Origin: Candidatus Zymogenus saltonus | Lineage (GTDB): Bacteria > Desulfobacterota > Zymogenia > Zymogenales > Zymogenaceae | Direction of reading: 5' to 3' | DNA: 52,157 bases | Assembly: GCA_016929395.1 (NCBI GenBank) | Contig: JAFGIX010000030.1 | Location: 1 to 52,157 of the forward strand | Shown: positions 10,767 through 50,726 of the stretch, one piece after another | Numbering within the stretch: the stretch's first letter is position 1 | Layout of the letters: each line of letters begins with the position of its first letter | Made by a program: the position numbers and the translations under genes | The notes under the pieces: model-generated | What the model saw: the letters and a program-made list of their open reading frames with translations, nothing else | Database searches by the model: none | What the model was told of the DNA's origin: nothing

Positions 10767-10784
10767 TTAACATCAGATTAACAT
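10767..10784 (+). promoter_or_regulatory. Pho-box-like pair of TTAACAT direct repeats
   Basis: TTAACAT at 10767-10773 and again at 10778-10784, an exact 11-bp period, matches the repeat form in the three 48-bp elements elsewhere in the window. It lies about 80 bases upstream of the ECF-like gene, but in the opposite orientation, so its role is uncertain. Confidence 0.4.
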
Positions 10785-12416: not shown

Positions 12417-13097
12417 ATGGAAAAATTGATAGTCATTTTAGACGATGAGCCGGATATTGTCAAAATCGTGTCGGAGAGCCTTAAAAACTTCGGCTTCAAT
12501 GTAGAGGGGTTTTACGATGCTAAAACCTTTTATCAATTTATCAAGGATAAAAAACCGAGCCTGATACTGCTCGATCTGATGCTTCCGGACGAAGACGGCT
12601 TTGAAATATGTAAGAACCTGAAAACTAAAAGCGATTACTCCGACATTCCAATAATCATTTTGAGCGCAAAGAGTGCGGAGACCGATAAGGTAGTAGGCCT
12701 GGAGCTCGGCGCGGACGATTATATCACAAAGCCTTTTTCCACCCGGGAACTGGTGGCGAGGGTAAAAACGGTCTTGAAAAGAAGTGTGGAAAACAAGGGG
12801 ACAAAGATAATAAAAATCAAGGACGACTTTTTAATAGACTTGGACAAATATGAGGTTACGGTTGACGGGGAAAAGATAAAACTCACCACAACTGAATTTA
12901 AGATTCTTAAACTCTTGACTTCAAAGATCGGCGTCGTATTTTCCAGAGAAGAGATTCTCGACTACCTTTGGGGTGAAGAAAAATATGTTATTGACAGAAC
13001 CGTCGATATACACATAAGGCATTTGAGACAAAAGCTCAAATCGGCTTCAGGAGTAATAAAAAGCTTCAGGGGAATAGGATATAAGGTAGAGCTATGA
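12417..13097 (+). CDS. phoB: OmpR/PhoB-family response regulator
   Basis: The 226-residue protein has an N-terminal receiver with the acidic pair in ILDDEPD, phosphoacceptor Asp near 53 in LILLDLMLP, and the conserved Lys in YITKPF near 103. The C-terminal winged helix (about 130-226) ends with the typical RTVDIHIRHLRQKL recognition helix and FRGIGYK wing. It binds direct-repeat DNA as a dimer after phosphorylation. It overlaps the following kinase gene by four bases (ATGA), so the two are translationally coupled. The PhoB assignment rests on the pairing with a PhoR-type kinase and on Pho-box-like repeats in the window; no pst or phoU genes are seen here, so another stimulus is possible. Confidence 0.85.
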   Translation: MEKLIVILDDEPDIVKIVSESLKNFGFNVEGFYDAKTFYQFIKDKKPSLILLDLMLPDEDGFEICKNLKTKSDYSDIPIIILSAKSAETDKVVGLELGADDYITKPFSTRELVARVKTVLKRSVENKGTKIIKIKDDFLIDLDKYEVTVDGEKIKLTTTEFKILKLLTSKIGVVFSREEILDYLWGEEKYVIDRTVDIHIRHLRQKLKSASGVIKSFRGIGYKVEL

Positions 13098-14827
13098 AAA
13101 AATCCCTGTTCCTGAAGTTCTTTGTAAGCTACTTTTTTATAGTATTCTTCTTTTCATTGTTTGTCGTTATCTTCTCCTTCCATTCCATAAGATCCCACTA
13201 CACCGACAGTTACGCCAAAGATCTTGAGAGTCTTTGCAAGATACTCAGCCCCCTGATTGTTCAGTATATGAATTCGGGCCAAGAAGAAGAGCTCAACAAG
13301 CTCGTAGACAATATAAGAAGCGAAACCGACACGAGAATAACCATAGTAGATATAAACGGCAGAGTTCTAAAAGACTCCGAAGAAGATCCGAAATTAATGG
13401 AGAACCTGAGTGATCGTGAAGAGATCTTCAACGCGAAGGAGTCGGGTGTGGGCAGATCAATCCGCTTCAGCGACACGGTCGGGGAGCAGATGATATTCGT
13501 TGCCATGCCGCTCAAGGAAGATAAAAACACAATAGGCGTTTTGAGATTAGGTTTATACCTGAAGGATGTAGAAATCCTTTTGAACAGATTAGAGCTGGAA
13601 ATCCTATATATAGTCCTGTCTTTCCTGTTCTTGGCCCTTGCCGGCTCGATCTTTTTTTCCAGAAACCTTGTAAAGCCCATAAAGGATCTCAACTACGCAA
13701 CGAAAAAGTTAGCGGAAGGCGATTTCAGCATAAGGACTTCCGTAAACAGGAACGACGAGTTAAATACCCTTTCAGAACATTTTAACTTCATGACGGAAAG
13801 AATCAATAAATTATTCACGGAGCTTTCACAGCAAAAGGACGATTTGTTTCTCATAATATCCTCGATGCAGGAGGGGGTTTTGGTCCTGGACAGAAAAGAG
13901 AGAATCTTGTTTACTAATTCAAGCCTCACCGAAGTAATGGGAAGGGAATTCATTTTGGGTAAATTTTACTGGGAGGTCATAAGAGAGGGCGACCTGGTCG
14001 AGCTGATAAGCAGGGTCAGGCAGGAAGCGGACAACGTCTTGAAAGAGCTGTATCTCGGAGACAATGTTTTTCTTTGCAGCGCAACCTTCTTGAAGGCCAA
14101 AGGAGAGATAGTGCTGGTCTTTCACGACATAACGGAGATGAAAAAACTCGAAAATATGAAGAAGGATTTTATAGCCAACGTATCCCATGAATTGAGGACG
14201 CCGCTGACATCGATCAAGGGGTCGCTCGAGATGCTGGAAGAAAGTCCACCCGAGAAAAAGGATCAATATCTGGATATTATGAAGAGGAATACCGAAAGGC
14301 TCATCAATATTATTCAAGATATTGCAATCCTGTCGGAGCTCGAGAAAAAAGAGCTGCCCCTTGAATTGGAAGAAGTGAATGTCAAGCAGATCGTAGAGGA
14401 TGTTATCAAGATCTTTGAAAGGGAAATAGCGGAAAAGGGTCTTAACCTCAATTTCATGGCCGACGACAAGCAATATATTATATCCGCTGACCCATTTAAG
14501 CTGGAGCAGATGATCATAAACTTGATATCCAATGCAATCAAATACACCGATCGTGGAGAGATACTGATCTCTTTAAGGACACAAGACACGAAGTTGATCC
14601 TAACCATAAAGGATACGGGCATCGGGATACCCAAAAAAGACCTTCCAAATATTTATGAAAGGTTTTACCGCGTGGATAAGTCCCGCTCGAGAAAATTGGG
14701 GGGAACCGGACTGGGCCTTTCAATCGTGAAAAGCATTGTAGTGCAGCACAAAGGAGATATCAAGATAGACAGCACTCCCGGCCAGGGGACTTCCTTCACG
14801 ATCAAGCTCAATAAAGACTTGAATTAA
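13094..14827 (+). CDS. phoR: PhoR-like sensor histidine kinase (TM-sensor-TM-HAMP-PAS-HisKA-HATPase)
   Basis: The protein has 577 residues. In order it shows a first membrane helix (about 10-30), an extracytoplasmic sensor of about 135 residues, a second helix (about 166-188), a HAMP linker, a PAS domain (about 250-345), and the H-box FIANVSHELRTPLTSIKG with phospho-His near 365. N-box, G1 (DTGIGIPKKDLP), F-box (YERFYRVDKSRSRK) and G2 (GGTGLGLSIVK) follow. The F-box wording is typical of the PhoR/WalK group. It phosphorylates the regulator encoded just upstream, with which its start codon overlaps. The large outer sensor differs from E. coli PhoR, which has almost none, and resembles Gram-positive and deltaproteobacterial PhoR. 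Confidence 0.9.
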   Translation: MKKSLFLKFFVSYFFIVFFFSLFVVIFSFHSIRSHYTDSYAKDLESLCKILSPLIVQYMNSGQEEELNKLVDNIRSETDTRITIVDINGRVLKDSEEDPKLMENLSDREEIFNAKESGVGRSIRFSDTVGEQMIFVAMPLKEDKNTIGVLRLGLYLKDVEILLNRLELEILYIVLSFLFLALAGSIFFSRNLVKPIKDLNYATKKLAEGDFSIRTSVNRNDELNTLSEHFNFMTERINKLFTELSQQKDDLFLIISSMQEGVLVLDRKERILFTNSSLTEVMGREFILGKFYWEVIREGDLVELISRVRQEADNVLKELYLGDNVFLCSATFLKAKGEIVLVFHDITEMKKLENMKKDFIANVSHELRTPLTSIKGSLEMLEESPPEKKDQYLDIMKRNTERLINIIQDIAILSELEKKELPLELEEVNVKQIVEDVIKIFEREIAEKGLNLNFMADDKQYIISADPFKLEQMIINLISNAIKYTDRGEILISLRTQDTKLILTIKDTGIGIPKKDLPNIYERFYRVDKSRSRKLGGTGLGLSIVKSIVVQHKGDIKIDSTPGQGTSFTIKLNKDLN

Positions 14828-14893
14828 AACTCGCCGCTCCCCAAACAAACAGTTTTTCAAGAATCGCTTTCTTGTCCACATATTTTCAAAAAT

Positions 14894-14941
14894 AAAAATT
14901 AACACAAAATTTACATAACCTTTATTTGGAATAAACACGCA
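14894..14941 (+). promoter_or_regulatory. 48-bp Pho-box-like promoter element, copy 1
   Basis: This is one of three copies that differ from a common sequence by at most one base. It begins AAAAATTAACAC and contains 11-bp spaced repeats (TTAACAC, TTTACAT, TTTATTT) like PhoB half-sites. It ends in AATAAACACGCA. TATTCAT about 6 bases beyond may be the -10 box. It lies some 160 bases before the diguanylate cyclase gene and just after the PhoB/PhoR-like operon. Confidence 0.75.
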
Positions 14942-15100
14942 AATGGTATTCATTTTACCGAGGGTATCAGGTGCAAAAAAAGAGGGAGGGGGAAGGGGGA
15001 GTAAATATATGAAGGTCACCAAAAGATCATATGACATGAAAATCTAAACATAAAAGAACAATTAACGGAGTGACAAAAATCGGTGTTTTTGGGGCCTTAA

Positions 15101-17964: not shown

Positions 17965-18426
17965 ATGGAAGACTTGAACAGGCCCATAAAAAACATTCTT
18001 GTACCTGTTGATTTCTCCGAAACATCGAGGGTCCTCGCCCATTACGCCAACATCTTTTCGGAGAAATTTAAGGCAAAAATCCATCTACTTCATGTTTTTC
18101 AGGAATATGAAGGGTTAACGAAGCTCGTTCTGACAAACAAGGTACTGGAAAACCTGATGGACGAGCTTGACGATTCCGGCGTAAAGGAGATGGGGGATTT
18201 TTGTAGAAAATATATCGACAAAAATGTCGAGTACGAAACATTATTTTTAAAAGGCGACCCTTTCAAAGAGATCTTGGAGACCATCAAGGATAGAAATATC
18301 GACCTGGTCATTATGGGGACCCACGGCAAAACGAGGTTTGACCATTTCTTTTTCGGCAAGACGGCTGACAGGGTGGTACGAAATGCCAACTGCCCGGTAA
18401 TGACGGTCAGGGTTACATCTTGGTAG
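17965..18426 (+). CDS. UspA-family universal stress protein (3)
   Basis: The 153-residue Usp domain starts IKNILVPVDFSETSRVLA and ends with GTHGKTRFDHFFFGKTADRVV. The G-xx-G-x9-G core of the ATP loop is kept, but the following Ser/Thr position is Lys, so nucleotide binding may differ from the two other Usp proteins here. It is more distant from them than they are from each other. It lies 70 bases before the CoA-transferase/GNAT gene and is probably co-transcribed with it. Confidence 0.92.
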   Translation: MEDLNRPIKNILVPVDFSETSRVLAHYANIFSEKFKAKIHLLHVFQEYEGLTKLVLTNKVLENLMDELDDSGVKEMGDFCRKYIDKNVEYETLFLKGDPFKEILETIKDRNIDLVIMGTHGKTRFDHFFFGKTADRVVRNANCPVMTVRVTSW

Positions 18427-18499
18427 ATAGGAGCCGGGGCAAAGCCGATTATCGTTCAGCTTAAACGGACCTACAGGGCGAATAAAAAGTGGAGGTGTG

Positions 18500-20371
18500 G
18501 TGGAAAAGGAAGCTTATAAAGAAAAATATCCCGAGAAGCTGCTGGAGACCGATAAAATATTTGAACGCATACACCGCGGCGACAGGATATTTATAAGCAC
18601 CGGATGTGGAGAGCCGAGCTATCTCGTGGGGGAAATCATAAAATATGTTGAATCCCACCCGAAGGCGGTGGTGGATGCGGAGATATTTCACGTGTGGACC
18701 CTCGGCGTCGCCCCCTACGCCGATGACAAATTCAAGAGCAACTTTCGCCACAACTCCTTTTTCATAGGGGACAATACAAGAGGCGCCGTCAACCAAGGAA
18801 ACGCGGATTACACGCCCGTGTTTCTATCCGAGGTTCCGAGTCTGCTGAACCGAAATATGATACCGGTGGACGTGGCCCTTATTCAAACCACACCCCCTGA
18901 CAGTCACGGCTACATGAGTCTCGGGATAAGCGTGGATATTGTAAAGGCGGCGGTAGAAAATGCGTCCCTTGTGATCGCGCAGATAAACTCGAACATGCCC
19001 AGAGTACACGGAGACGGATTCATCCATATTGAACAGGTCGATTTTCTCGTTCCCCACGATGAGCCCTTGATGGAGTATGAGGATCGGATTCCGGACGAGA
19101 TCTCTCAAAGAATCGGGAATTACGTAAGTCGCATCATTCAGGACGGCGACACAATACAGGTGGGATACGGAAGCATCCCGAACGCGATACTGTCGAACCT
19201 GAAAGACAAGAAGCACCTCGGCGTCCACACGGAGCTTTTGACCGACGGGATCGTGGAGCTGATGAAAGCGGGCGTCATAGATAATTCACAAAAAAGCCTG
19301 GATCGTGGAAAGACCGTCGCCACTTTCTCAATGGGAAAGAAGAAGACCTACGATTACATCCACGACAACCCGAGCGTCGAGTTCAAGTCGGTGGATTATA
19401 CCAACAATCCCCTGATTATCGCCCGCCACGAAAACATGGCCGCAATCAACAGCGCCCTGGAGGTCGATTTGACGGGTCAGGCTACCGCCGAGTCGATCGG
19501 CAACACCTTCTACAGCGGGATCGGCGGACAGGCGGACTTCATGAGGGGGGCAGTCCTGGCCCGTGGGGGAAAAACCATCTTGACCATTCAGTCGACGGCG
19601 GAAGGGGAGAGTATTTCGAGGATAGTGCCCTATCTCAAGGAGGGGGAGGGAGTGACCCTAAACAGGGGCGATATTCATTACGTGGTTACCGAATACGGGA
19701 TCGCGTACCTGCACGGTAAAAACATCCGGGAGAGGGCCATGGAGCTCATTTCCATAGCCCACCCGAAATTCAGGCCCTGGCTAATAGATGAGGCAAAAAA
19801 GCTCAATTTCATATACAGAGACCAGGCCTTTATTACGGGGGAGTTCGGGGAATACCCGGAGCACCTCGAGGCATACAGGACTACAAGGACCGGTCTCAAA
19901 ATACTTCTCAGGCCGGTAAAGATCAGCGACGAGCCTCTCCTCAAGGAGTTCTTCTACGATCTTTCGGACGAGACCCTCTACCGGAGGTTCATGTCGATGA
20001 GGAAAGATATGCCCCACGACAGACTGCAAAACTTCGTTGTGATCGATTACACCAGGGATATGATAATCCTCGCCGTCTTGAAAGAGGAGGAAAAGGAAAC
20101 CATCCTCGGTATGGCCCAATACATCTCGGATGAGAAGTCCCTCCAGGTGGAGGCGGCCATAGTGGTCAAAGACGAATTTCACAGGCAGGGGATTGGGTGG
20201 GAGCTGGTCCAATATCTGGTGCTTCTGGTAAAGAGGAAGGGGCTGACTGGCGTCATGGCCTCGGTATTGATAGAAAACAGACCTATGATGAGGCTTTTAG
20301 AAAAGAGCGGATTCGATATAGAAAAGGAGAGCATCCAGGGTGTCTACGAGATGAAACTGAATTTTAGATAA
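18500..20371 (+). CDS. Acetyl-CoA hydrolase/CoA-transferase fused to GNAT acetyltransferase
   Basis: The protein has about 623 residues. Residues 1-430 match the acetyl-CoA hydrolase/4-hydroxybutyrate CoA-transferase family. GVHTELLTDGIVEL holds the likely catalytic Glu that forms the CoA thioester, and GIGGQADFMRGA is the typical glycine motif. Residues about 465-623 form a GNAT domain, with LRPVKISDEPLLKEFF at its start and the acetyl-CoA loop FHRQGIGWELVQYL. It could move CoA between acids and also acetylate a protein or small amine. GGAGG at 18491-18495 sits too close to the GTG at 18497, so I favour the GTG at 18500. It is followed after 62 bases by a second CoA-transferase of the same family lacking GNAT. 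Confidence 0.9.
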   Translation: MEKEAYKEKYPEKLLETDKIFERIHRGDRIFISTGCGEPSYLVGEIIKYVESHPKAVVDAEIFHVWTLGVAPYADDKFKSNFRHNSFFIGDNTRGAVNQGNADYTPVFLSEVPSLLNRNMIPVDVALIQTTPPDSHGYMSLGISVDIVKAAVENASLVIAQINSNMPRVHGDGFIHIEQVDFLVPHDEPLMEYEDRIPDEISQRIGNYVSRIIQDGDTIQVGYGSIPNAILSNLKDKKHLGVHTELLTDGIVELMKAGVIDNSQKSLDRGKTVATFSMGKKKTYDYIHDNPSVEFKSVDYTNNPLIIARHENMAAINSALEVDLTGQATAESIGNTFYSGIGGQADFMRGAVLARGGKTILTIQSTAEGESISRIVPYLKEGEGVTLNRGDIHYVVTEYGIAYLHGKNIRERAMELISIAHPKFRPWLIDEAKKLNFIYRDQAFITGEFGEYPEHLEAYRTTRTGLKILLRPVKISDEPLLKEFFYDLSDETLYRRFMSMRKDMPHDRLQNFVVIDYTRDMIILAVLKEEEKETILGMAQYISDEKSLQVEAAIVVKDEFHRQGIGWELVQYLVLLVKRKGLTGVMASVLIENRPMMRLLEKSGFDIEKESIQGVYEMKLNFR

Positions 20372-20433
20372 ATATGTGCATGAGCATTACCCTCATAATT
20401 TCCTACAAGAATAATTATGAAAGGAGAAATCTT

Positions 20434-21738
20434 TTGGACTGGCAAAAAGATTATAAGAAGAAGTTGGTAACGAGCGACGAAGCAGCGGCGGTAATCAAGT
20501 CGGGAGACACGGTGGGCATGCCGGGCGGATGCAGCCAGCCCGTCGATGTCGTCAATGCGCTCTGCAAGAGAAAGGACGAGCTCGAAAACGTGACGCTCTA
20601 TTCCGGAATATCTATGTATCCCTATGAAGTCTTCAAGCCGGAATACAAGGGCCATATTAATTTTATATCTTTATTTGTAGGACCGCTGGAGCGTGCGTTT
20701 CTGAAGGGAGGGAACGTCGATCCGATTTCATATCATTTCTCCCATGCCCGCGCCATAAGCTTCAAGGCCGACTGCAACATATTTATGTGTGAGGTTTCGG
20801 AGCCGGACGAGAGGGGCTACATGAGCTTCGGCCCAGTGGGGGCGTACAACAACGAGATAATGATGCAGATCGCCGATATCGTGATCATTCAGGTAAATAA
20901 GCAGACCCCCTTCGTCTTCGGCAATCAGACCGTCACCCATGTCAGCAACGTTGACTACATCGTGGAGAGCGATCATCCCCTTCCGGAAATACCGGAGATA
21001 CCGATCAGCGACGTGGAAAAAAAGATCGGAACCCTGATCGCGGAGCGCATTCCTGACGGGGCCACGATACAGATCGGCATCGGAGCGGTGTCCGACGCCG
21101 TCGGAAACCTCTTGGTCGACAAGAAAGACCTGGGCGTTCACACCGAGATGATGACCAACTGCATGATGAACCTGGCGAAGAAGGGGGTCATCACCGGCAG
21201 TAAGAAGAGTTTCCACCCGGGCAAGATGGTGGCGGCGTTTGCCATCGGGAACAAGGAACTGTACGATTTTATCGACCGCAACCCGGTGTGCGAGTTTTGC
21301 CCCGTCTACTACGCCAACGATGTAAACAACATCGCTAAAAACGACAACATGATCTCGATAAACAACACCATGACCGTAGACCTGACCGGCCAGTGCGCCT
21401 CGGAGTCCCTCGGCTTCAGCATGTTCAGCGGCACCGGCGGGCAGCTCGATTTTGTCAGGGGAGCCACCAAGTCGAAGGGGGGGATGTCCTTTCTCGCCCT
21501 TCCCTCCACGGTGGAAACAAAATCAGGGACCTTATCGCGCGTCGTCACGCAGTTTAAGCCGGGGACGATAGTCACAACCCCGAGGTCGGATGTTCAGTAT
21601 ATCGTCACCGAATACGGCATCGCGGACATGTGGCTCAAAAGCGTCCCCCAGAGGATAAAGGAGATGATCTCCATTGCCCATCCGGACTTCCGTGACGAGC
21701 TGGAAAAAGAGGCGAGAGAGGTGGGATTGCTGTATTAG
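20434..21738 (+). CDS. Acetyl-CoA hydrolase/4-hydroxybutyrate CoA-transferase family protein
   Basis: The 434-residue protein is full length for 4-hydroxybutyrate/acetate CoA-transferases. Key features are GMPGGCSQPVDVVNAL near the N-terminus, LGVHTEMMTNCMMNL with the catalytic Glu, the GTGGQLDFVRGA glycine loop and the YIVTEYGIADM motif. It swaps CoA between acyl-CoA and acetate-type acids in the cytoplasm. I chose the TTG at 20434 because AAGGAG lies 8 bases before it and the protein then begins MDWQKDYKKK, as in relatives. Upstream in-frame codons overlap the end of the previous gene region and would add an unlikely hydrophobic lead. Confidence 0.9.
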   Translation: MDWQKDYKKKLVTSDEAAAVIKSGDTVGMPGGCSQPVDVVNALCKRKDELENVTLYSGISMYPYEVFKPEYKGHINFISLFVGPLERAFLKGGNVDPISYHFSHARAISFKADCNIFMCEVSEPDERGYMSFGPVGAYNNEIMMQIADIVIIQVNKQTPFVFGNQTVTHVSNVDYIVESDHPLPEIPEIPISDVEKKIGTLIAERIPDGATIQIGIGAVSDAVGNLLVDKKDLGVHTEMMTNCMMNLAKKGVITGSKKSFHPGKMVAAFAIGNKELYDFIDRNPVCEFCPVYYANDVNNIAKNDNMISINNTMTVDLTGQCASESLGFSMFSGTGGQLDFVRGATKSKGGMSFLALPSTVETKSGTLSRVVTQFKPGTIVTTPRSDVQYIVTEYGIADMWLKSVPQRIKEMISIAHPDFRDELEKEAREVGLLY

Positions 21739-21865
21739 ATCAGAATGTAATGAAAGAAAACTGGCGGTTTTTGGCAATAGAGGTTTAGGAATCAAAATTA
21801 AGCGAGACAGTTTTTTGTTGCCGATGCATGAAGACGGAGAATTCATGGCGCAATAAGGAGGAGAT

Positions 21866-22234
21866 ATGAGAGAAAAAGAGGGAAGGAAAGATTTCTTTAA
21901 GAGGATGTTTTACTTGAGCACCATGGGCCTCTCAATGGCGTTTGCAATCTTTATAGGCCTCGGCGTCGGTATATTCCTTGACAATCACTACAAAACACAC
22001 CCACTTTTTACAATGATCTTACTGATAGCGGGGATATTGGCAGGATTCAGGAATATATACGTCCTTTTTGTAAAATACGGATTACAGAAGGGCAAGAAGG
22101 ATGTGGGCGATGAGATTAAAGATGCAAGCAAGAAGATCCCGGACTGGGCGATCTCTATGGGAAAGAAAAGGGATGTTAGAGGCAAGGAAACCAAAAAGAG
22201 CTCGGACTCTTCGACCTCAAACTCCAATAAGTAA
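21866..22234 (+). CDS. atpZ: AtpZ/AtpI-family protein
   Basis: The 122-residue protein has two membrane helices (about 18-40 and 48-70) with the family pattern FAIFIGLGVGIFLDNHYKTHPLFTMILLIAGILAGFRNIY. AtpZ/AtpI proteins help assemble the c-ring and carry Mg2+ for the F1Fo ATP synthase. The C-terminal 50 residues are charged and end in a Ser-rich tail, longer than usual. GGAGGAG precedes the ATG. The next gene is subunit c; subunit a, normally between them, is absent. Confidence 0.8.
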   Translation: MREKEGRKDFFKRMFYLSTMGLSMAFAIFIGLGVGIFLDNHYKTHPLFTMILLIAGILAGFRNIYVLFVKYGLQKGKKDVGDEIKDASKKIPDWAISMGKKRDVRGKETKKSSDSSTSNSNK

Positions 22235-22398
22235 ATCCGTTGCGGGATTTTTTTAAGATCGCCGGCATCGGCAAAGGTAAAATCCTTCTGGGATATTTAT
22301 TACCTTTTTCACCTTCTGAAGATGTTTTGTATCAGAGATGATATAAAATGATTGGTATAAAGAGGAAGACTTAAACCTAACATTGGAGGAGATCTAAA

Positions 22399-22770
22399 AT
22401 GACGAAAAAGCTGGTCTGTCTTATTATCGTTCTTTCGGTGATTTTCATCTCGTCGATTGCAATAGCGCAGAGCCACGAGGAGGATCAGGCAAAGGAAACG
22501 GATCCTCAACTGGCGACCTTAATCTACATGGCCTCTATCCTCGGAGCCTGTCTGGCAATTGGATTGGGCGTTGTCGGGCCCGGAGCCGGAATGGGACATG
22601 CGGTGAGGGGTGCAATGGAGGGAATGGCCAGGAATCCACAACAATACAGCAGGCTTCTCGGCACCATGATGATCGGACTTGCGATTATCGAATCCCTTGC
22701 GATCTACGCGCTCATCATATCGCTGATCGTACTTTTCGCCAATCCATTTATAGCGAAAATGGGTTTATAA
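22399..22770 (+). CDS. atpE: F1Fo ATP synthase subunit c
   Basis: The 123-residue protein has a signal-peptide-like first 24 residues (cleavage likely near AIAQ), as known for several deltaproteobacterial c subunits. Two membrane helices follow, joined by the polar loop GMARNPQQ. The ion-carrying acid is Glu98 in AIIESLAIY. Ser99 and Tyr103 match two residues of sodium-binding c subunits, but the first-helix Gln of that site is Met65 (GPGAGMGHA), so specificity is unclear and protons are plausible. GGAGGAG lies before the ATG. No other Fo or F1 gene is near apart from atpZ. Confidence 0.92.
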   Translation: MTKKLVCLIIVLSVIFISSIAIAQSHEEDQAKETDPQLATLIYMASILGACLAIGLGVVGPGAGMGHAVRGAMEGMARNPQQYSRLLGTMMIGLAIIESLAIYALIISLIVLFANPFIAKMGL

Positions 22771-22794
22771 GGTCAATGGTTTGAGAGTAAAGGA

Positions 22795-23034
22795 TCAGGT
22801 AAGCGATATCGTCTTGCAGAATTGCGGGATTGTCCGATACAATTCTGAAGTTGCTTAAGTTTCACCGACCGTATTGTCAGCTCAGACATGGAAGCAGTTC
22901 CGTTGGGTCGAACCCAGCGTTAAGGCGGGACATTGCATGCAAAGAAGTTTAACGGGGTGGAGCAAGGGAAAACGCCCCACCCCGGACCTTCCAACCTTAT
23001 ACCTGAGACTGCGAAGCGATTAACAGTTACCTGA
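22795..23034 (+). ncRNA. Candidate structured RNA downstream of atpE
   Basis: About 240 bases without a coding frame hold many nested inverted repeats. The ends pair perfectly (TCAGGTAA 22795-22802 with TTACCTGA 23027-23034). CTTGCAG (22813-22819) pairs with CTGCGAAG (23009-23016) past one bulge. Between them lie CAGAATTG/CAATTCTG (22817-22847, which overlaps and competes with the previous stem), TGTC/GACA, GGAA/TTCC, a CGTTGGG/CCCAGCG hairpin with a TCGAA loop (22901-22919), and a GGGGTGG/CCACCCC hairpin (about 22954-22984). It does not match the SRP, tmRNA, 6S or RNase P landmarks I know. It could be a new RNA or an extended 3' end of the atp transcript. Confidence 0.35.
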
Positions 23035-23659
23035 AAATTGAATTGGTATTTCAGAGATTCCCACGGCTCACCGGACTCACAGCACTGAAGGGATTTTAAG
23101 CTTACCGTATTCTATTTGGGAAGGGACGGTGCTTTATCTCGCGCTTTATCTCGCGTTTTATCTCGCTCGATATGGGCGCGATATGGGCGACACCGGCATC
23201 GATTATGGGGATCAAGAGATTATCTTTGAGCGTTTGGAAAGGTTGACGGGAAAATCTTAAAGGACGCGGTTTCTGAAATTGCTCTAATTACCCCGCCGAT
23301 GGTGTTCATCGACGACCTTCAAGATCTCAGCAACCTTGACGAGGGAATTCGATCCTATTTAGGCTCAAAACAATAACTCAAGTTTTTTCTTGAAAAATCC
23401 CCATCGAATAATAAATTCTTTCAGCAATGATGAGATACGCTCGATTAACGTTCGAATTAATTACTTTCCGAAAATATTAATATTGGTGTCAATGTTAAAT
23501 AGGTATTAGAGCTTAACACCCACGACAGCGTAAAGAGTTATCCAACCGGGCCTTATGGAATTGTAGAAACATAAAAAGCTCAACCTTTAGGCGCTTACTT
23601 CATAATTGAGCTATTTAAAAGAGATTTTGAAGATTATTTACTTTAAAACTCTGCCGAAC
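23035..23659. other. Intergenic stretch with short tandem repeats, no gene supported
   Basis: Apart from the tandem repeats at 23131-23189, an unstarted open frame at about 23230-23376 could be the tail of a lost gene; 48 codons is too short to judge. The region is otherwise AT-rich and leads to copy 2 of the 48-bp element. Confidence 0.4.
23131..23189. repeat. 12-bp tandem repeat x3 followed by 11-bp tandem repeat x2
   Basis: GCTTTATCTCGC occurs at 23131-23142 and 23143-23154, then as GTTTTATCTCGC at 23155-23166. CGATATGGGCG follows twice, at 23168-23178 and 23179-23189. All are head-to-tail. Confidence 0.85.
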
Positions 23660-23707
23660 AAAAATTAACATAAAATTTACATAACCTTTATTTGGAATAA
23701 ACACGCA
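23660..23707 (+). promoter_or_regulatory. 48-bp Pho-box-like promoter element, copy 2
   Basis: It differs from copy 1 at one base (TTAACAT for TTAACAC) and from copy 3 at one base. The 11-bp spaced TTAACAT and TTTACAT are good PhoB-type half-sites. A TATTCAT-type -10 follows as in copy 1. It lies about 70 bases before the receiver-kinase gene at 23778. Confidence 0.75.
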
Positions 23708-23777
23708 TGTGTTATTCATTTTATAAATCCATCATATAACCGCGATAAAAGCGGCAATTTATGATTTTAATCGGTGA

Positions 23778-24989
23778 ATGGACTTCGTTATGGATCGTTT
23801 ACGTGTACTTGTTGTCGACGATGAATTGGGAATGTGCCTCGGTATAGAGCGCGCTCTCAAGGATTTCGCCGTCACAATACCGGATTTATCCGAAGAAGTC
23901 AGATTTGACATTGACAAGGCTTTAACGGGCAATGAGGCGCTGTCGATTATCGAGGCAAAGCCGCCGCATATCATACTTCTGGATTACAGGCTCCCGGATA
24001 TGCTCGGATCGGACATTCTTGAAACTCTCAAGGCGGATAAGAGAACTGATATTCTTGTCATTATCATCACCGCCTTTGCATCGATTGAGACCGCCATAGA
24101 AACGATCAAGCTCGGCGCTTACGATTTCCTCGCGAAACCCTTCACTCCGGACGACCTCAGAAATGTTTTGAGAAAGGCCGCCGGAAGGCTGATCCTCCAG
24201 AGAAAGGCGAAATCTCTGCTTATGGAAAAGCGCCAGATTCGTTTTCAGTTCATATCGGTTCTCGCCCACGAATTGAAGTCGCCTCTAAACGCCATCGAGG
24301 GATACCTCGGGATTATGCGCGACAGGAAGCTTGGCGAAGAGATAGATAAGTATGATCGAATGATAGAGCGCTGTATCATTCGCATCAGCGGAATGAGAAA
24401 GTTGATCTTCGACCTGTTGGACCTCACCCGAATCGAGTCCGGCCAGAAGAAGCGTTCCTTTGAAAAGGTCGACCTCTGCAAAGTAGCCGTGGATTCGATA
24501 GAGATGATGTCAAATGACGCCAAGGCCCAAAAAATAGATATTGAAATGAAAAGCAAGGGCCCAATTATTCTAACCGGCGTACGCGACGAGGTCGAAATCA
24601 TATTCAACAATCTTATTTCCAACGCCGTAAAATACAACAAGGAAGGCGGAAAGGTCACGGTCGACATCGGACTTAAGGACAACATCGCCAAGATCAGGGT
24701 GACCGACACCGGCATAGGGATGAGCTCCGATGAGGCGGCAAAGATATTTGACGATTTTGTGCGCATCAAGAACTCGAAGACCAAAAACATCATGGGAAGC
24801 GGTCTCGGGCTCTCCACGGTCAAAAAGCTGGTCGTCTTATACAAGGGCAATGTGTCCGTAACAAGCAAAGAGGATAAGGGGAGCACCTTTACGGTCACCC
24901 TAAGAACGGATTTAACACCGGAGTCGGAAAGTGACATATATGATGAAGGGTGGGGCCTTACTACCCAAGGAAACATTCAAACCATATAA
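23778..24989 (+). CDS. Receiver-histidine kinase hybrid (left of hydrogenase operon)
   Basis: The 403-residue cytoplasmic protein has an N-terminal receiver (VVDDE at 12-16, phospho-Asp69 in ILLDYRLP, conserved Lys in FLAKPF near 120). A short helical linker leads to a histidine kinase with H-box VLAHELKSPL (His164), N-box NLISNAVKYN, G1 DTGIGM and G2 GSGLGLS. The architecture suits a kinase controlled by phosphorylation of its own receiver. ATG 23790 (four codons later) is an alternative start. Copy 2 of the 48-bp element lies upstream. The same architecture occurs at 32933-34072 on the other side of the hydrogenase genes. Confidence 0.92.
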   Translation: MDFVMDRLRVLVVDDELGMCLGIERALKDFAVTIPDLSEEVRFDIDKALTGNEALSIIEAKPPHIILLDYRLPDMLGSDILETLKADKRTDILVIIITAFASIETAIETIKLGAYDFLAKPFTPDDLRNVLRKAAGRLILQRKAKSLLMEKRQIRFQFISVLAHELKSPLNAIEGYLGIMRDRKLGEEIDKYDRMIERCIIRISGMRKLIFDLLDLTRIESGQKKRSFEKVDLCKVAVDSIEMMSNDAKAQKIDIEMKSKGPIILTGVRDEVEIIFNNLISNAVKYNKEGGKVTVDIGLKDNIAKIRVTDTGIGMSSDEAAKIFDDFVRIKNSKTKNIMGSGLGLSTVKKLVVLYKGNVSVTSKEDKGSTFTVTLRTDLTPESESDIYDEGWGLTTQGNIQTI

Positions 24990-25103
24990 TTGTATAACAT
25001 AATCGGAGTCCTTTAGTGCCGGAATAAAAGTTTTCGTAGAGAGAGGGTGGTGTTGGTAAATTTTGAAAGGACTCTTAACTGTTTGGATAAAAAAAGAAAA
25101 AAT

Positions 25104-25127
25104 TTCTAAAAAACCGTTTTTTTAGAA
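25104..25127 (+). promoter_or_regulatory. AU hairpin abutting ribosome-binding site of receiver gene
   Basis: TTCTAAAAAA (25104-25113) pairs with TTTTTTAGAA (25118-25127) as a ten-pair stem directly before the AGGAGG ribosome site at 25129-25134. It could weakly terminate read-through from the upstream kinase or expose the ribosome site. Evidence is the pairing only. Confidence 0.4.
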
Positions 25128-25140
25128 CAGGAGGTGTGAG

Positions 25141-25515
25141 ATGAAAGGCGGCAAGCACGTGATAATGGTGGTTGACGACGACCAGGACGTCCTCGACGGA
25201 TTAAGGGCGATTCTGGAGTCCGGGGGATACAAAATGGTTGAGGCCAGCAGCGCCGAAGATGCGGCAAAGGTATTTGAGGACGAAAACCCTGACCTTCTTA
25301 TCGTTGACATGATGATGGAGCAAATCGACTCCGGCCTGAATTTTGTAAAAATGGTCAGAGACAGCGGATCAAAGGCGCCGATGTACATGTTGAGCTCCGT
25401 CGGCGACGAGCTGTCTAAAAATATCAGCAGTTCCGATCTGGGCGTGGCCGGCATACTTCAGAAACCGCTGGACAGTGAATTTATACTGCGGGTACTGGAG
25501 ATCCAGCTTCATTAG
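25141..25515 (+). CDS. Single-domain response regulator (receiver only)
   Basis: The 124-residue protein is one receiver domain: VDDDQD at 11-16, phospho-Asp56 in LLIVDMMM, and Lys in LQKPLD near 108. There is no output domain, so it relays phosphate or binds a target protein, as CheY does. A strong AGGAGG lies before the ATG. It probably takes phosphate from the receiver-kinase encoded upstream. It aligns residue for residue over the first 60 positions with the receiver at 32354-32749 (Asp56 in both). Confidence 0.9.
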   Translation: MKGGKHVIMVVDDDQDVLDGLRAILESGGYKMVEASSAEDAAKVFEDENPDLLIVDMMMEQIDSGLNFVKMVRDSGSKAPMYMLSSVGDELSKNISSSDLGVAGILQKPLDSEFILRVLEIQLH

Positions 25516-25728
25516 GGATAGGTATGCGCAGATCCTCGCAGACATGGGATTCAAGGAACAACTTATTACACTTGAGTTGGGATTGAGGATAGACTAAAAA
25601 AATGGATGTAACCGCAATGCGACAATATCAAACAAATCGGGCAAACAAATCGGGGCGAATAAAGTCAGAGCGAACTAAATCAGAATATATTCATACACAC
25701 ATTGCCGCTTAAAGAGAAAACGCTTGAA

Positions 25729-26038
25729 ATGAACGATAACAAAACGGTGACGGATAAAGACAGGGACAAGTTAGAGCGGTTCAGGGAGATAAATCATTGG
25801 TATAAAACAATGGAGGATATAAAGGGCGTGGAGGCGATAGCCGTCTTGACCGACGAGAGGCCCGATCTTCTTATCGCCGGGGTGATGATGAGGGAAATAC
25901 GCATCGACTTGGATTTTCAAAAAATTGTCGAAGGAGGCGGAGTAAAAAACGTCCATTGAAATATTAAGTACTGTCGGTAACGCAGCGGTTCCGATCCGCT
26001 TTCAGCCATCGGACCTCAAGAAGTTGTTGGTCATGTAA
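25729..26038 (+). pseudogene. Decayed receiver-domain copy, frameshifted
   Basis: The frame from 25729 to a stop at 25957-25959 reads ERPDLLIAGVMMREIRIDLDFQKIVEGGGVKN. This matches the ENPDLLIVDMMMEQ...GLNFVKMVRDSG part of the receiver gene just upstream, with Gly in place of the phospho-Asp. One base on, the next frame continues as ILSTVGNAAVPIRFQPSDLKKLL up to TAA 26036-26038, matching the LSSVGDEL... part of the same gene. The acidic pocket near the start is also lost. It is therefore a duplicated receiver that has decayed through substitution and a single-base insertion. Confidence 0.75.
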
Positions 26039-26240
26039 TATATTATTAAAGATTATCCAAGAAACTATTTGATCAGAGATTGAAATAAACCGAAAGAGAG
26101 GGGGGAGAAAGTTTTTTAGAAAGCCAAGCATTCCGAATAAGTGGATAAGTCTAATATCTGATAAGGTAGGTCTCTAAAAAATATGTCGGCACTAAGGGAA
26201 GTGCTTAAAAAGCTAAACAGATTTTATAAAGGGGATCGTT

Positions 26241-26747
26241 ATGTCAATTGAAATATCGTGTTGTAATTGTGAAGCTTGTGAAGCTTCTGAAGCCGAGCTT
26301 TTTGAAAGACTGGATGAAGTATTAAAGGACTACGCCAATAAGCCCGGAGGTCTTATTCCAGTGCTTCAGATTGCGCAAGGAATCTTCGGCTACCTGCCGG
26401 AAAGTGTCCTTAAGCGGATTTGTCTGGCTCTTAACAAGTCTTACAGCGAAGTTGCAGGAGTGGTAGGGTTTTATTCCTTTTTTTCCACCGTGCCCCGAGG
26501 CAAACATGTAGTTCGGATATGTATGGGAACCGCCTGTTACGTGCGTGGGAGTAAAAAAATACTCGATACCCTGAAAAACACTTTAGGCATAGACGTTGGA
26601 GAGACGACGGAAGACAAGCTGTTTTCGCTTGAGGTTGCTCGTTGCTTTGGTGCATGCGGTTTGGCCCCCGTGATATCCATAGATGATGAGATATACAAGC
26701 AGGTAAAGGCCTTGACCGTAAACAATATCCTAAAGCAGTACAGTTGA
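26241..26747 (+). CDS. hydC: [FeFe] hydrogenase subunit HydC (NuoE-like, [2Fe-2S])
   Basis: The 168-residue protein matches the NuoE/24-kDa thioredoxin-like ferredoxin family. The helical N-terminal part includes LIPVLQIAQGIFGYLPE. The [2Fe-2S] site is formed by CMGTAC (near 96-101) and CFGACG (near 135-140). The extreme N-terminus has an extra CCNCEAC cysteine cluster that the core fold does not need. In HydABC enzymes this subunit helps pass electrons between NADH and the iron-sulfur chain. The gene is first of a three-gene operon, 16 bases before hydB. Confidence 0.93.
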   Translation: MSIEISCCNCEACEASEAELFERLDEVLKDYANKPGGLIPVLQIAQGIFGYLPESVLKRICLALNKSYSEVAGVVGFYSFFSTVPRGKHVVRICMGTACYVRGSKKILDTLKNTLGIDVGETTEDKLFSLEVARCFGACGLAPVISIDDEIYKQVKALTVNNILKQYS

Positions 26748-26763
26748 TATCAGGAGATGAAAA

Positions 26764-29700
26764 ATGGTGAAACTTAAGATTGAAGATTTTCAGAAGATAA
26801 GGGATGACATATTGAAGAGCATGTCCCAAAGAGAAGAGGGGATGAGGGCTCAGAGCTTGGTTAAGCCGGAAGCTCCTGATGTTGAACCCGGCGAAGTCGA
26901 AGCTGTTGCCGTAACCCCCGAGGTCTTGAAAGAGGGCCGATTCGACCTGCTGATATGCGGCGGGACCGGCTGTCACTCTTCCGGGAGCATAAAGATCAGA
27001 GAGAGACTTTTGAAAGAGATCGAGGACAGGGGGCTCTCGGAGAAGGTCAGGGTGGTGGAGACCGGGTGTAACGGTTTTTGCGCTCAAGGGCCGATAATGG
27101 TGGTCTATCCGGGGGGGATTTTTTATCAGCTCCTCACCCCCGAGGACATGCCCGAGCTGATCGACGAGCACATCGTGAACGGACGTCTCGTGGAGAGGCT
27201 GATGTATCTGGACCCCATCGAGAAGAAGCATCTACCGAGGATGAAAGATATATCTTTCTTCAAACATCAGGAGCTGAGGGTTCTTCGGAACAGGGGCCTA
27301 ATCGCCGCCGAAAAGATCGACGAGTATATCGCGAGGGACGGCTATACGGCCATGATCAAGGCCTTTACTAAGATGACCCCCAAAGAGATCGTCTCCGAGG
27401 TAAAGGACTCGGGTCTCAGGGGACGCGGCGGTGGGGGCTTCATAACCGGACTGAAGTGGGAGCTCTGCAGCAGGTCCGAGGGTGACGTCAAATTTGTCAT
27501 CTGCAACGCCGATGAGGGCGACCCGGGAGCGTTCATGGACAGAAGCGTTCTCGAGGCCGATCCCCATGCGGTCCTTGAGGGGATGATGATAGCCGCAAAG
27601 GCGATCGGCGCCCATAAGGGCTATATCTACTGCAGGGCCGAGTATCCGCTGGCGATAACCAGGCTGACAATCGCCATCGAGCAGGCCGCAAACTACGGAC
27701 TTTTGGGTAAGGATGTCCTTGGCACCGGCTTCGACTTCGATATCGAGATCTGTCAGGGCGCCGGCGCCTTCGTCTGCGGGGAGGAGACGGCCCTCATGCG
27801 CTCCATCGAGGGAAAGAGGGGCGAGCCGCGTCCCCGGCCCCCGTTTCCCGCCATAAAGGGGCTCTGGGACAGCCCGTCGGTGCTCAACAACGTAGAGACA
27901 TTCGCAAACGTCCCATCCATCATAAATCACGGGGCGAAGTGGTACCGCTCTATGGGGACGGAGAGGAGCCCGGGAACCAAGATCTTCGCACTTACCGGAA
28001 ACGTGAACAGGGTCGGCCTCGTGGAGGTCGAGATGGGGATACCTCTCGGAAATATCATCTACGACATCGGCGGCGGTATTCCGAACGATAAAAAATTCAA
28101 GGCCGCGCAGATAGGCGGCCCGTCGGGCGGGTGTATCCCCAGGGAACACCTGAATGTGCCCATAGACTTCGAGTCCTTGACGGAGCTGGGCGCGATAATG
28201 GGTTCCGGCGGATTGATAGTCATGGACGAGGATACCTGTATGGTGGATATGGCTCGCTTCTTCCTCGAGTTCGTCCAGGAGGAGTCGTGCGGAAAATGCA
28301 CCCCCTGCAGGGTCGGAACAAAGCGTATGTTGGAGATCCTGACTAATATATGCCAAGGAAAGGGGAAAGAGGGCGACATAGAGAGATTGATCGATCTGGG
28401 CGAGACCATAAGGGACACCTCACTGTGCGCACTGGGACAGACCGCCCCGAATCCGGTCCTTTCGACGATAAGATATTTCCGCGACGAATACGTGGCCCAC
28501 ATTCGGGACAAAAAGTGTGTCGCCGGAGTCTGCCCCGATTTGGTGAGGGCGCCCTGCCAGAACGCCTGTCCTGCTGGAGTCGACGCCCCTGGATACATCT
28601 CCCTTATCGGGGAAAAGCGCTACGACGAGGCGATTCTACTCCACAGGGAGAGAAATCCGCTCGCCGCGATCTGTTCGCGCGTCTGCTTCCACCCCTGCGA
28701 GGATAAATGCCGAAGGGGATCTTTGGATTCACCCGTGGCCATTCGCCGCATAAAGAGGTTTATGGCCGACAAGGATAAAAACTTCAAGATTCCCGAGGTG
28801 CGCGTGAATGAACAAAACGCCAAGAAAAAGATAGGAATCATCGGCTCCGGACCCGCCGGACTGTCGTGTGCCTATTTTCTTGCCCGCCTGGGCTATAAAC
28901 CCACGATCTTCGAGGCCGAGTCTAAGCCCGGGGGAATGCTCCTGCAGGGAATTCCGGCCTACAGACTTCCGAGGGATATCCTCAAAAAGGAGATCAAGAT
29001 GATCGAGGATATGGGAGTCGATATCAAGACCGATGTCAGACTGGGGAAGGACATTACTCTTGAAGGCCTGCGTGATCAGGGATACGACGCCGTCTTCATC
29101 GGTGTGGGGGCGCCCACGGGGAGCCTTATGAAGGTGAAGGGCGAGGATACCCAGGGTGTAATAGACGGAATCGGCTTTCTGCGTCAGTTCAATATGACGG
29201 GGAAGGCCCAGGCAGGCAAGAACGTTATAGTCATAGGCGGAGGCAATGCGGCCGTGGACGCCGCCCGTACGGCTCTACGGCTCGGTGCGGAGTCCGTCAC
29301 GATAGCCTACCGTCGAACGAGGGAGGAGATGCCGGCCTACAAAGACGAGGTCGAGGAGGCGGAGCGCGAGGGCGTTAAGTTGAGGCTTTTGATGGCTCCC
29401 GACGGGGTAGTCGCCGGCAAGGACGGCCGTGTAAAGGGGATGACGTTCAAGCAGATGGAGCTCGGCGAGTTTGACAAAAGCGGGCGGCGGCGTCCCGTGC
29501 CGATAAAGGACGCAGACCTCTTCATAGAGGCGGATCAGATAATCGCCGCTATAGGCCAGACACTGAACCCGGAGGAGATGCTCGACAAAACCAAGCCCAA
29601 GCTTAATAAGTGGGACTATTTCGAGGTGAATCCGATTACGGGTCAGACATCGATAGAGTGGGTATTCGCCGGCGGCGATGCGGTTACCGGGCCCTCCTCC

Positions 29701-31829: not shown

Positions 31830-31948
31830 GGATGGGAGATGATAGTTGGAAGGGCGGACGGAAGGTGATTGTTGGAAGGGTGGATGGGGGATGAAGGGAT
31901 GGACGGGAGATGATAGTTGGATGAATGGACTGGAGATGATAGTCTGAA
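31830..31948. repeat. 26-bp purine-rich tandem repeat, about 4.8 copies
   Basis: Units start GGATGGGAGATGATAGTTGG or a near variant at 31830, 31856, 31882, 31901 and 31927. All are 26 bp except the third, which is shortened to 19 bp, and the incomplete last. It lies 70 bases after hydA and does not encode a credible protein. The rest of 31760-32353 has no gene. Confidence 0.85.
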
Positions 31949-32094
31949 ACCACGATTTTTTCGCGATCAGCGCGATCAGTTATAAATCCGACATAAGCTT
32001 GAAATCAAAAACATTTGTGGCTCTTGGAACTGAAGTTGTTTTAAGCGGAATATGGCAGGTGTTTCTTGTTAAATGTTTTTGACGATTCAAGCGA

Positions 32095-32130
32095 AGCGGG
32101 AAATCTTAAAGAGATTTCCCGCTTTTTTTT
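32095..32130 (+). terminator. Strong Rho-independent terminator after hydrogenase operon
   Basis: AGCGGGAAATCT (32095-32106) pairs perfectly with AGATTTCCCGCT (32112-32123) round a TAAAG loop and runs into eight T. Two further GCCGCG-T-run phrases follow at once. It is the first clear terminator downstream of hydA, some 335 bases after its stop. Confidence 0.9.
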
Positions 32131-32353
32131 GCCGCGTTTTTTTTTGCCGCGCTTTTTTTGATAGATCAATAGAATAGAGATCAAAGATTGTTCACCGGAA
32201 TAATGGAATCACAAACAGTTATCCCCGCATCATAGAGCGGCAAGGCGGCGGCTTTACCACCGACAACGGCGGGGCGTTCCCCCGTTCCCCTCTCCCCGTC
32301 AACCCTTAAAAGAGTACCAATGCATAGACGATCAATGAACGGGGGGGAAGCCT

Positions 32354-35386: not shown

Positions 35387-35835
35387 TTTTGTTCTCCTTT
35401 AAAAACTATACATTTGAACTGTGTGAATATTTATCATTGTTCTATTAAGACACGATAATGCCTTGAAAAAAGGCAAAATCCCCTTTCCACATCCAGTCTT
35501 TGATACTATCTCGAAGACAAAAGAACACAAAATACAAATCGGTTTTGTACTTAAAAAGACCTTTTTCCATTTATTATTACCAAATGCGTGTTTATTCCAG
35601 ATAAAGGTTATGTAAATTTTATGTTAATTTTTTCCGGGCGCGCGTGTGTAAAATCTGAGGGTCAAAGAGGCAGCTATTATCGAAATCCCGCCGTAAATAT
35701 CTATATTTTTTAACATCTTCAATCCAATTTAAGCCTGCAATTTGAATTTCACCTTCAATTAGACTATACTTAAAGAGACCATATTGATACTGACATCTAA
35801 TTTTGAGACATCTAATTTTGAAAATTCGGTGATTT
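35387..35835. other. Divergent intergenic region holding 48-bp element copy 3
   Basis: This lies between the TauE-like gene (minus) and ubiE (plus). Apart from the element at 35585-35632, a short direct repeat (CATCTAATTTTGA at about 35794 and 35810) precedes ubiE. No gene is seen. Confidence 0.45.
35585..35632 (-). promoter_or_regulatory. 48-bp Pho-box-like promoter element, copy 3
   Basis: Read on the minus strand, it matches copy 2 at 47 of 48 bases (CTTTATCTGG for CTTTATTTGG). TTAACAT and TTTACAT are 11 bp apart, and TAATAAT follows the element where the other copies have TATTCAT. It points to the TauE-like gene whose GTG is at 35386. Confidence 0.75.
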
Positions 35836-49125: not shown

Positions 49126-49435
49126 CTGGACGGATAAAAAGCCTTTAATCCCTGTCATTCTGGCTGTTGTGTTTCAACGGGAAGGGGTTAGACTTCGACG
49201 ATCGAAGTTCCTTACGAGACTTAACCAGTCTTTCGATACTACGGATCGATTTTGATAAGGAAATCAGATGATTTAAACCTTTGAAAAAGGCTTGCAAATA
49301 TTGCGATCCCAAATATGGCAAGTAACTAGCGTTTTTAAGATTTCTGCAAATAAACGGAATTTTGAAGATAATTATGCAAGATTAATGGGGCAGGCTTATC
49401 AGAAAAATTTGTTTGAGGAATGAAGATAACTATTA
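49126..49435. other. Intergenic stretch entering AT-rich island, no gene seen
   Basis: Composition falls to AT-rich by about 49250. I see no gene, hairpin with T-tract or direct repeat that would mark an island edge. Confidence 0.4.
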
Positions 49436-49741
49436 TTATCTTTTTTTGTAAGAAATACCTGTTGCCGTTCCTGTTTTTATAACATATACCGTCTTATCTG
49501 GCCTATCTATATGATACATAACTCTGGTATTACTTTCCTTCCATCTATAAATTCCCTTATATTTTTTACCCTGTAATTTTACTATACGTTTCGGTTTAGG
49601 ATGATAAAAGGGATTGTTTTTAACGTCAATTTCAAAATGATCTTTGCATAACTGTTGGTCTGGATGAATTATGAAAAAGGAGTAGTATTCCTCTTCTATG
49701 TTGTCAGTTCCAAAGCCGATCTTCCATTCTATATCAGACAT
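49436..49741 (-). CDS. RelE/ParE-fold toxin-like protein
   Basis: The protein has 101 residues from ATG 49741. The C-terminal half has the RelE-type order: a helix ending in DVKNNPFYHPKPKRIVKLQG, then KYKGIYRWKESNTRVMYHIDRPDKTVYVIKTGTA, then ISYKK. Basic Arg, Lys and a late Tyr sit where RelE-fold ribonucleases place catalytic residues. It overlaps the end of the preceding gene by 8 bases (ATGTCTGA), the usual antitoxin-toxin coupling. An in-frame ATG at 49777 is possible. AT-rich codon use differs from flanking genes. It may also be a RelE-fold protein without toxin function. Confidence 0.65.
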   Translation of the reverse strand: MSDIEWKIGFGTDNIEEEYYSFFIIHPDQQLCKDHFEIDVKNNPFYHPKPKRIVKLQGKKYKGIYRWKESNTRVMYHIDRPDKTVYVIKTGTATGISYKKR

Positions 49742-49997
49742 TGCTCTTTTCTGATAATTTCTTTTTAAGAGACTCATACCTTGATAAGACTTCTTGTCTT
49801 AATTCTGGTATAGAATTTATTTCTGCGGCTTCTTCCCAGCCCCAAATGTAATTTTGTATTTCTTCTTTATCCCCAGAAAAAGATAGTTTTAAAAGTCCAC
49901 ATAAAAGATCGGCTTTATCATCTTCTGAAATATTATCAAGAAGAAAGCTAATTCTATCTTCAATAGAATTTTCTATATTATTTTTCATCTTTGCCAT
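49734..49997 (-). CDS. Small acidic helical protein, putative antitoxin
   Basis: I do not recognise this 87-residue protein by family. It is acidic and predicted helical (ISFLLDNISEDDKADLLCGLLKLSF, then IPELRQEVLSRYESLKKKL). It overlaps the upstream DUF3467-like gene by 20 bases (or 11 with ATG 49988) and the RelE-like gene downstream by 8, so the three are translationally coupled. Size, charge and place directly before a RelE-like gene suggest an antitoxin, but no DNA-binding motif is visible. Confidence 0.55.
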   Translation of the reverse strand: MAKMKNNIENSIEDRISFLLDNISEDDKADLLCGLLKLSFSGDKEEIQNYIWGWEEAAEINSIPELRQEVLSRYESLKKKLSEKSNV

Positions 49998-50292
49998 AAG
50001 ATTTTTTATATATATCGTAATTTGTTTTAAGGGCTTTAATAATAGGCTCCATTAATCCAATTGGTATGGCTATTTCTACTTGAACTGATGCAGCCATAAT
50101 TTTAGAATCAATCACATCATTTTTTTCTGTATCAGTTAGTGGTGGTCTCGCATCACAAAATGTAAAAGTAAAGTCAAAAGGCCCGTGATTAACTGTAAAG
50201 TAATTGGCATAGATCCTTTTAGATTCGGTATCTCTCGTTGGGATTACTTTAACATCAATTGTCTTATTTGATTGTTTATCATTATCCAACAT
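49978..50292 (-). CDS. DUF3467-like protein
   Basis: The 104-residue protein fits the DUF3467 pattern: YANYFTVNHGPFDFTFTFCD near 28-47, a loop, then VQVEIAIPIGLMEPIIKALKTNYDIYKKSYG to the end. The family is of unknown function, small and usually cytoplasmic. AAGGAG lies before the ATG, the only strong ribosome site of the three-gene cassette, so translation of all three probably starts here. Its AT-rich composition suggests acquisition with the two genes downstream. Confidence 0.7.
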   Translation of the reverse strand: MLDNDKQSNKTIDVKVIPTRDTESKRIYANYFTVNHGPFDFTFTFCDARPPLTDTEKNDVIDSKIMAASVQVEIAIPIGLMEPIIKALKTNYDIYKKSYGKDEK

Positions 50293-50726
50293 ATTATGTA
50301 CTCCTTATCTATATCTCATGTGATGTCATATAATACCTTATATAATTATCCTCCTCTGCATAAAATATATCAATACTTTTCTATTTATTTTTAAAAAAAG
50401 TTATTGTAAAATACAATAATAAAATGTTTTTACTCATTTAATCCCTCTACTGCTAAATTGTACATCTCAAACAAGAAAATGATTAATCACACTTTTCCCA
50501 GAATATCATTTCCAAATGCAGTCAAACCATTTATTTGTCGATGATTCTGTTAAACTCTCTTAAATCCTTCACCGGCTTGAAGGGAACCGGGTATTTCCGA
50601 CCGCAAGGAGTAATCTCCCCAACAGAGTATGTAAAGCCCCTCCGGTTTATACGCCCGGCGGGGCTTTTTTAGCTAGATGAATGAAACGGTTCGATCTCGA
50701 ATAAAACTCTCTTCCCAAAGCCCCGG
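50293..50726. other. AT-rich intergenic stretch, possible small RNA before terminator
   Basis: No plus-strand gene lies upstream of the terminator at 50634-50670, so a short transcript from about 50530 is possible. Inverted GC-rich phrases (CACCGG...CCGGGT near 50570-50592) would be inside it. The promoter is not clear. Nothing else is seen. Confidence 0.35.
50634..50670 (+). terminator. Rho-independent terminator without an obvious upstream gene
   Basis: AAGCCCC-T-CCGG (50634-50645) pairs with CCGG-C-GGGGCTT (50655-50666) with a single mismatch, and T's run to 50670. The T-tract is on the plus strand; in the other direction, after the alcohol dehydrogenase gene, only three T follow. Confidence 0.8.

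Follow-up and report, generated by a model that had tools for sequence, protein, structure and literature searches.

A hairpin-rich non-coding stretch behind an orphan atpZ-atpE pair of Candidatus Zymogenus saltonus, probably an ordinary spacer

The stretch considered here occupies positions 22795-23034 of a 52,157-nucleotide window (the whole stretch of DNA that was analysed) and lies in the long spacer that follows the second atpE copy of the genome. The genes and features of this locus are as follows:

21866-22234, plus strand: gene for an AtpZ-like protein (Pfam PF09527, ATPase_gene1)
22399-22770, plus strand: atpE, F0 subunit c, the second copy of the genome (PF00137, ATP-synt_C)
22771-23777, no strand assigned: spacer of 1007 bases from atpE to the next gene (ORF list, GC profile)
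22795-23034, plus strand: hairpin-rich non-coding stretch (sequence, fold, own-genome match)
22795-22802, plus strand: 5' half of the closing complement, TCAGGTAA (sequence and fold)
22901-22919, plus strand: hairpin CGTTGGG-TCGAA-CCCAGCG, of which the fold pairs 22902-22908 with 22912-22918 (sequence, fold)
22954-22983, plus strand: GC-rich hairpin GGGGTGG...CCACCCC with no T run behind it (sequence, fold; not terminator-like in the scans)
23027-23034, plus strand: 3' half of the closing complement, TTACCTGA (sequence and fold)
23778-24989, plus strand: next gene, a receiver-histidine kinase hybrid (Pfam)

The stretch begins 24 bases behind the atpE stop codon. Only 164 bases separate the AtpZ-like gene from atpE, too few for atpI or atpB, and the two genes (21866-22770) stand as an orphan pair without either. 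The other atpE of the same genome, on contig C63, is 48% identical to the copy at 22399-22770 and is preceded by two frames, to which the names atpI and atpB were given by eye rather than from a family search. Three other genomes of the genus or family yielded one atpE match each, 48-54% identical to the copy in the window, and a scan of named genomes, which may omit the genome of the window or very close relatives of it, returned 52 atpE loci; the top locus by E-value shares 49% identity over 80 residues, and identity peaks at 58% over 36 residues. A 61% relative of the downstream kinase (23778-24989), in genome G003, is flanked by another regulator and kinases, and its neighbourhood contains neither the stretch or its spacer nor an adjoining atpE. 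The locus is thus not common to the sampled relatives.

The first-pass annotation, which had proposed a structured non-coding RNA of about 240 nt, saw no coding frame here, and this was borne out. No frame of at least 50 amino acids starting with ATG, GTG or TTG overlaps 22795-23034, and the sequence lacks 3-base periodicity, its value of 0.13 falling below those of all 189 coding windows and all 57 spacer windows compared, the latter a set that excludes the stretch's own spacer and three short spacers used in the folding control. Between stop codons, an open piece of 54 codons lies within the stretch on the plus strand and one of 63 codons overlaps it on the minus strand. The GC content is 50%, as against a median of 38% for spacer windows and 54% for coding windows; it exceeds that of 84% of the 57 spacer windows, the remaining 16% being as GC-rich. 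Along the spacer, GC content stays at about 47-50% over 22771-23250, approximately the first 480 bases, and then drops to 30-37%. This gene-like composition and the subsequent fall would suit the remnant of a decayed gene, as would the impression that atpZ-atpE is what is left of a larger F0 operon, with no room for the atpI and atpB that, in contrast, seem to precede the C63 copy. Nevertheless, such a remnant is quite improbable given a periodicity below that of every coding and spacer window, and a Pfam search at E<=1 of stop-masked six-frame pieces covering at least 22771-23340 gave no match except a sub-threshold one to RALF (E 0.2). Four translated pieces, two of them touching the stretch, matched nothing in NCBIfam, and tblastn of the 54-residue piece against plasmids found no match. 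Whether this piece might be left over from a group II intron, a retron or a transposon was also considered, and the idea was dropped for want of any Rfam, Pfam, NCBIfam or plasmid tblastn match. No reverse transcriptase was recognised by eye among the frames of 18000-28000, and the literature search returned nothing that joins the 54-codon peptide with 'reverse transcriptase'. Further along the same spacer, 23131-23189 consists of tandem repeats, three GCTTTATCTCGC units followed by two of CGATATGGGCG.

The predicted fold of 22795-23034 is multi-branched with a closing stem, and the structural elements previously read from the letters recur in it. The ends are complementary, TCAGGTAA and TTACCTGA forming eight perfect pairs across 240 bases; the second stem reported just inside them corresponds to an inner stem (stretch positions 14-18 and 20-25); and several further local hairpins are found in the minimum-energy fold, as had been described. 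Both stems that had been singled out are present, CGTTGGG/CCCAGCG being shifted by one base in the minimum-energy fold to GTTGGGT/ACCCAGC and the GC-rich GGGGTGG pairing as GGGGTGG/CCACCCC. The plus strand folds at -82.1 kcal/mol against a shuffle mean of -65.9, with none of 200 shuffles as low, a z-score (-3.26) that is somewhat flattering because the coordinates were chosen at the closing 8-mer pair. The minus strand reaches a z-score of -2.86, with 3 of 200 shuffles as low. All shuffles for the folding controls preserved dinucleotide content, as is called for in the accessible part of PMC2453142.

Two comparisons within the window place these values in context. When 240-base windows were sampled from both strands of the full 52 kb, with 10 shuffles per window and 60 for the target, the excess stability of the plus strand was matched in 9 of 866 windows, putting it in the best 1.0%, and that of the minus strand in 17 of 866. 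The second comparison was restricted to 22 spacers picked by hand out of the ORF list, with 30 shuffles each and with the 14 windows overlapping the target excluded. Here, z-scores as low as that of the plus strand occurred in 12 of 338 windows (3.6%), drawn from six of the spacers, and as low as that of the minus strand in 30 of 338, drawn from ten spacers that include the rest of the stretch's own. Judged by excess energy, the windows as stable as the target number 8 (plus) and 12 (minus) of 338, and its spacer ranks seventh of the 22 when each is represented by its best grid window. The folding is therefore moderately in excess of chance. The closing stem is near chance: when 22771-23060 was shuffled 500 times, 6.2% of the shuffles held an 8-mer closing pair of the same kind, and the window has 146 perfect inverted 8-mer pairs with a span of 180-300 nt (2.8 per kb). 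Near-equal folding of the two strands is what inverted repeats would be expected to give, rather than an RNA under selection on a single strand.

The same control drew attention to two other spacers. The minus strand of 31900-32170 is the most structured of the 22, with long hairpins and a z-score of -5.45 in the control and -5.39 for that stretch itself; its plus strand carries a sub-threshold match to an L20 leader (20.3 bits against a gathering score of 58.7). The 1.6-kb spacer at 49126-50726, which has no frame of at least 120 amino acids inside it and one minus-strand frame overlapping its edge, also contains strongly folding windows, with a z-score of -4.59 at 49686.

The search with all Rfam covariance models that the first-pass annotation had proposed was carried out with Rfam 15, and 22700-23200 matched no family, even at E<=10. 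At gathering thresholds, the only match in the whole window was to a tRNA fragment at its edge, where a tRNA is truncated by the window start, also a contig end, so that positions 1-59 hold its 3' part; ARAGORN found nothing. The earlier view that the stretch matches none of SRP RNA, tmRNA, 6S RNA and RNase P RNA accordingly agrees with both programs. Its score lies below the gathering scores of 6S RNA (RF00013, 46.4 bits, with no match at E<=10), bacterial small SRP RNA (RF00169, 40 bits) and RNase P RNA (RF00010, 100 bits), and tmRNA was recovered in it by neither ARAGORN nor Rfam. The genome carries a clear 6S RNA on contig C3 (109.2 bits), a true SRP RNA on C32 (79.2 bits) and a true RNase P RNA on C4 (325.1 bits), so the stretch is no diverged stand-in for any of the three. 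It is like 6S RNA in size class (187 model positions against 240 bases), in its spacer location and in having a closing stem, but its fold is multi-branched, cmscan gave no match and the 6S RNA of the genome is the one on C3. Similarly, a GTCAG...GGAAGCAG string in the stretch, which we take to bear a slight resemblance to SRP domain IV, comes without a cmscan match to RF00169, and the true SRP RNA is that on C32.

A looser likeness exists to the candidate RNAs found by the GC-IGR approach of PMC6429828, in that the stretch belongs to a long, relatively GC-rich spacer of no known content. According to the part of that article available to us, candidates are picked by spacer length and GC content, preferably in genomes of very low GC, and ranked by the number of representatives and the quality of the consensus model; on that scale, a lone sequence lacking such a model would count as 'unnamed', or as 'low-ranking' at best. 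Here GC content is a weak criterion because the median GC content of the coding windows is itself 54%.

Searches for relatives recovered little beyond the stretch itself, which is its own single match in its genome. BLAST against 99 genomes of the phylum returned the stretch and one 27-nt match in a coding frame, and against 395 genomes, an overlapping set, the stretch and five short matches, every one of them within a long open frame. The 27-nt match, in G081, was rejected because it lies in a frame that reads by eye as pheT-like, and the four further short matches, in G118, G151, G235 and G343, were rejected for their location in long open frames. A combined sequence-and-fold model, made by entering a single sequence twice and hence of short reach, was run against 297 genomes with stricter filters and at E<=0.1 retrieved the stretch and three weak matches, of which the one in G284 (19.9 bits) was rejected as lying inside a long open frame and those in G171 and G281 are weaker still. 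With laxer filters, 37 genomes gave the stretch and matches at E 0.43 and 0.75 (G001 and G002), and a run on the window with ten loci, four atpE regions of the family among them, gave the stretch and two matches in L030, at E 1.9 and 7.1. These phylum searches are samples, the genome sets of the BLAST and structure-model searches overlap, and among 99 to 395 genomes, each searched at E<=0.01, a few matches of this kind are expected. Plasmids and phages searched with the whole spacer gave short, weak matches only, all outside the stretch; E. coli genomes gave no match, and neither did viral contigs searched with two exact patterns. No homologue whose stems could be compared for covariation emerged from the searches made. 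This is a poor guide to how far the stretch is conserved within the species, since the genus or family offered only three other genomes, whose atpE is 48-54% identical. No literature record was found that joins intergenic non-coding RNA, atpE and Desulfobacterota, and the accessible part of PMC11124144 makes no mention of atpE.

Signals that might frame a transcript were sought on both strands. On the plus strand, no promoter-like site was found from 22428 to 23034 and no terminator-like site from 22300 to 23900, a second scan agreeing over its own range; nor does a terminator pattern separate the atpE stop codon from the stretch. On the minus strand, a TTCCCA-18-TAAAAT arrangement at 23122-23093 could start a transcript that runs through the stretch, whose minus-strand fold (z -2.86) would be compatible with such a product. 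This origin is highly improbable, however: the site has 9 of 12 consensus matches, which is near chance, as is the total of five promoter-like sites against shuffle means of 3.1 and 3.6, and no relatives of the stretch were found.

Two readings of the plus strand then have to be weighed. The first is a structured RNA of some 240 nt that is specific to the lineage, encoded by its own gene or processed out of the atpZ-atpE message at its 3' end, which would possibly act in trans or by binding protein. In support of this, none of 200 shuffles folds as stably (z -3.26), the GC content of 50% is above the spacer median of 38%, 3-base periodicity is lacking and the fold is multi-branched with a closing stem. 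On the other hand, no relatives and no Rfam match were found, no promoter or terminator pattern frames the stretch on the plus strand, other spacers reach similar z-scores and both strands fold alike. We regard an RNA of this kind as rather unlikely, leaning against it because both a z-score of about -3 and a GC content of 50% also occur in other spacers of the window. Slightly more doubtful still is the narrower version, in which a large multi-branched RNA of about 240 nt, restricted to the lineage and without an Rfam 15 relative, would be made from the 3' flank of the message of an orphan F0 subunit. Such an RNA, if real, would be one more orphan in a thinly sampled bacterial lineage; before an attractive fold of a single sequence is labelled an RNA, it should be backed by homologues or expression data and set against the spacers around it.

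The second reading, which we favour as the probable one, sees in 22795-23034 no dedicated RNA gene but an ordinary spacer confined to this species, or a 3' flank of the atpZ-atpE orphans. This is argued by the spacer windows that equal or better its z-score (12 of 338, in 6 of 22 spacers), by a minus strand that folds nearly as well, by a closing stem that 6.2% of shuffles reproduce, and by the negative outcome of the homologue and Rfam searches and of the plus-strand promoter and terminator scans. Against it stand the GC content of 50% and a plus-strand stability within the best 1.0% of all windows and 3.6% of spacer windows, both of them traits that would be sought in an RNA gene. The sequence features are real but weak. 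If transcribed at all, by transcription that would enter from upstream, such a spacer would form the 3' flank of the atpZ-atpE message, and its local hairpins may act as in any stable 3' flank, slowing 3'-to-5' exonucleases or helping to end read-through.

Separately from the stretch, a sequence of 55-67 bases occurs in three copies in the window, at 14891-14957 (plus), 23657-23723 (plus) and 35578-35632 (minus), with 93-95% identity to the copy at 23657; in the own-genome BLAST with the spacer, the next match after these has an E-value of 0.145. The copies sit approximately 54 to 191 bases upstream of same-strand genes, which encode a PAS-GGDEF protein, a receiver-kinase and a TauE protein, and each holds TTAACAT- or TTTACAT-like repeats spaced by 11 bases. 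The pattern TTWACAT-N4-TTWACAT, with up to two mismatches, was found eight times against 1.0 expected; six of these matches are two registers of the three copies, which leaves a perfect match at 10767 and a poor match at 50160. Repeats of the TTWACAT type resemble, as we assume, Pho boxes. A receiver/Trans_reg_C regulator and a kinase are encoded at 12417-14827, and the three copies may be putative binding sites of that regulator.
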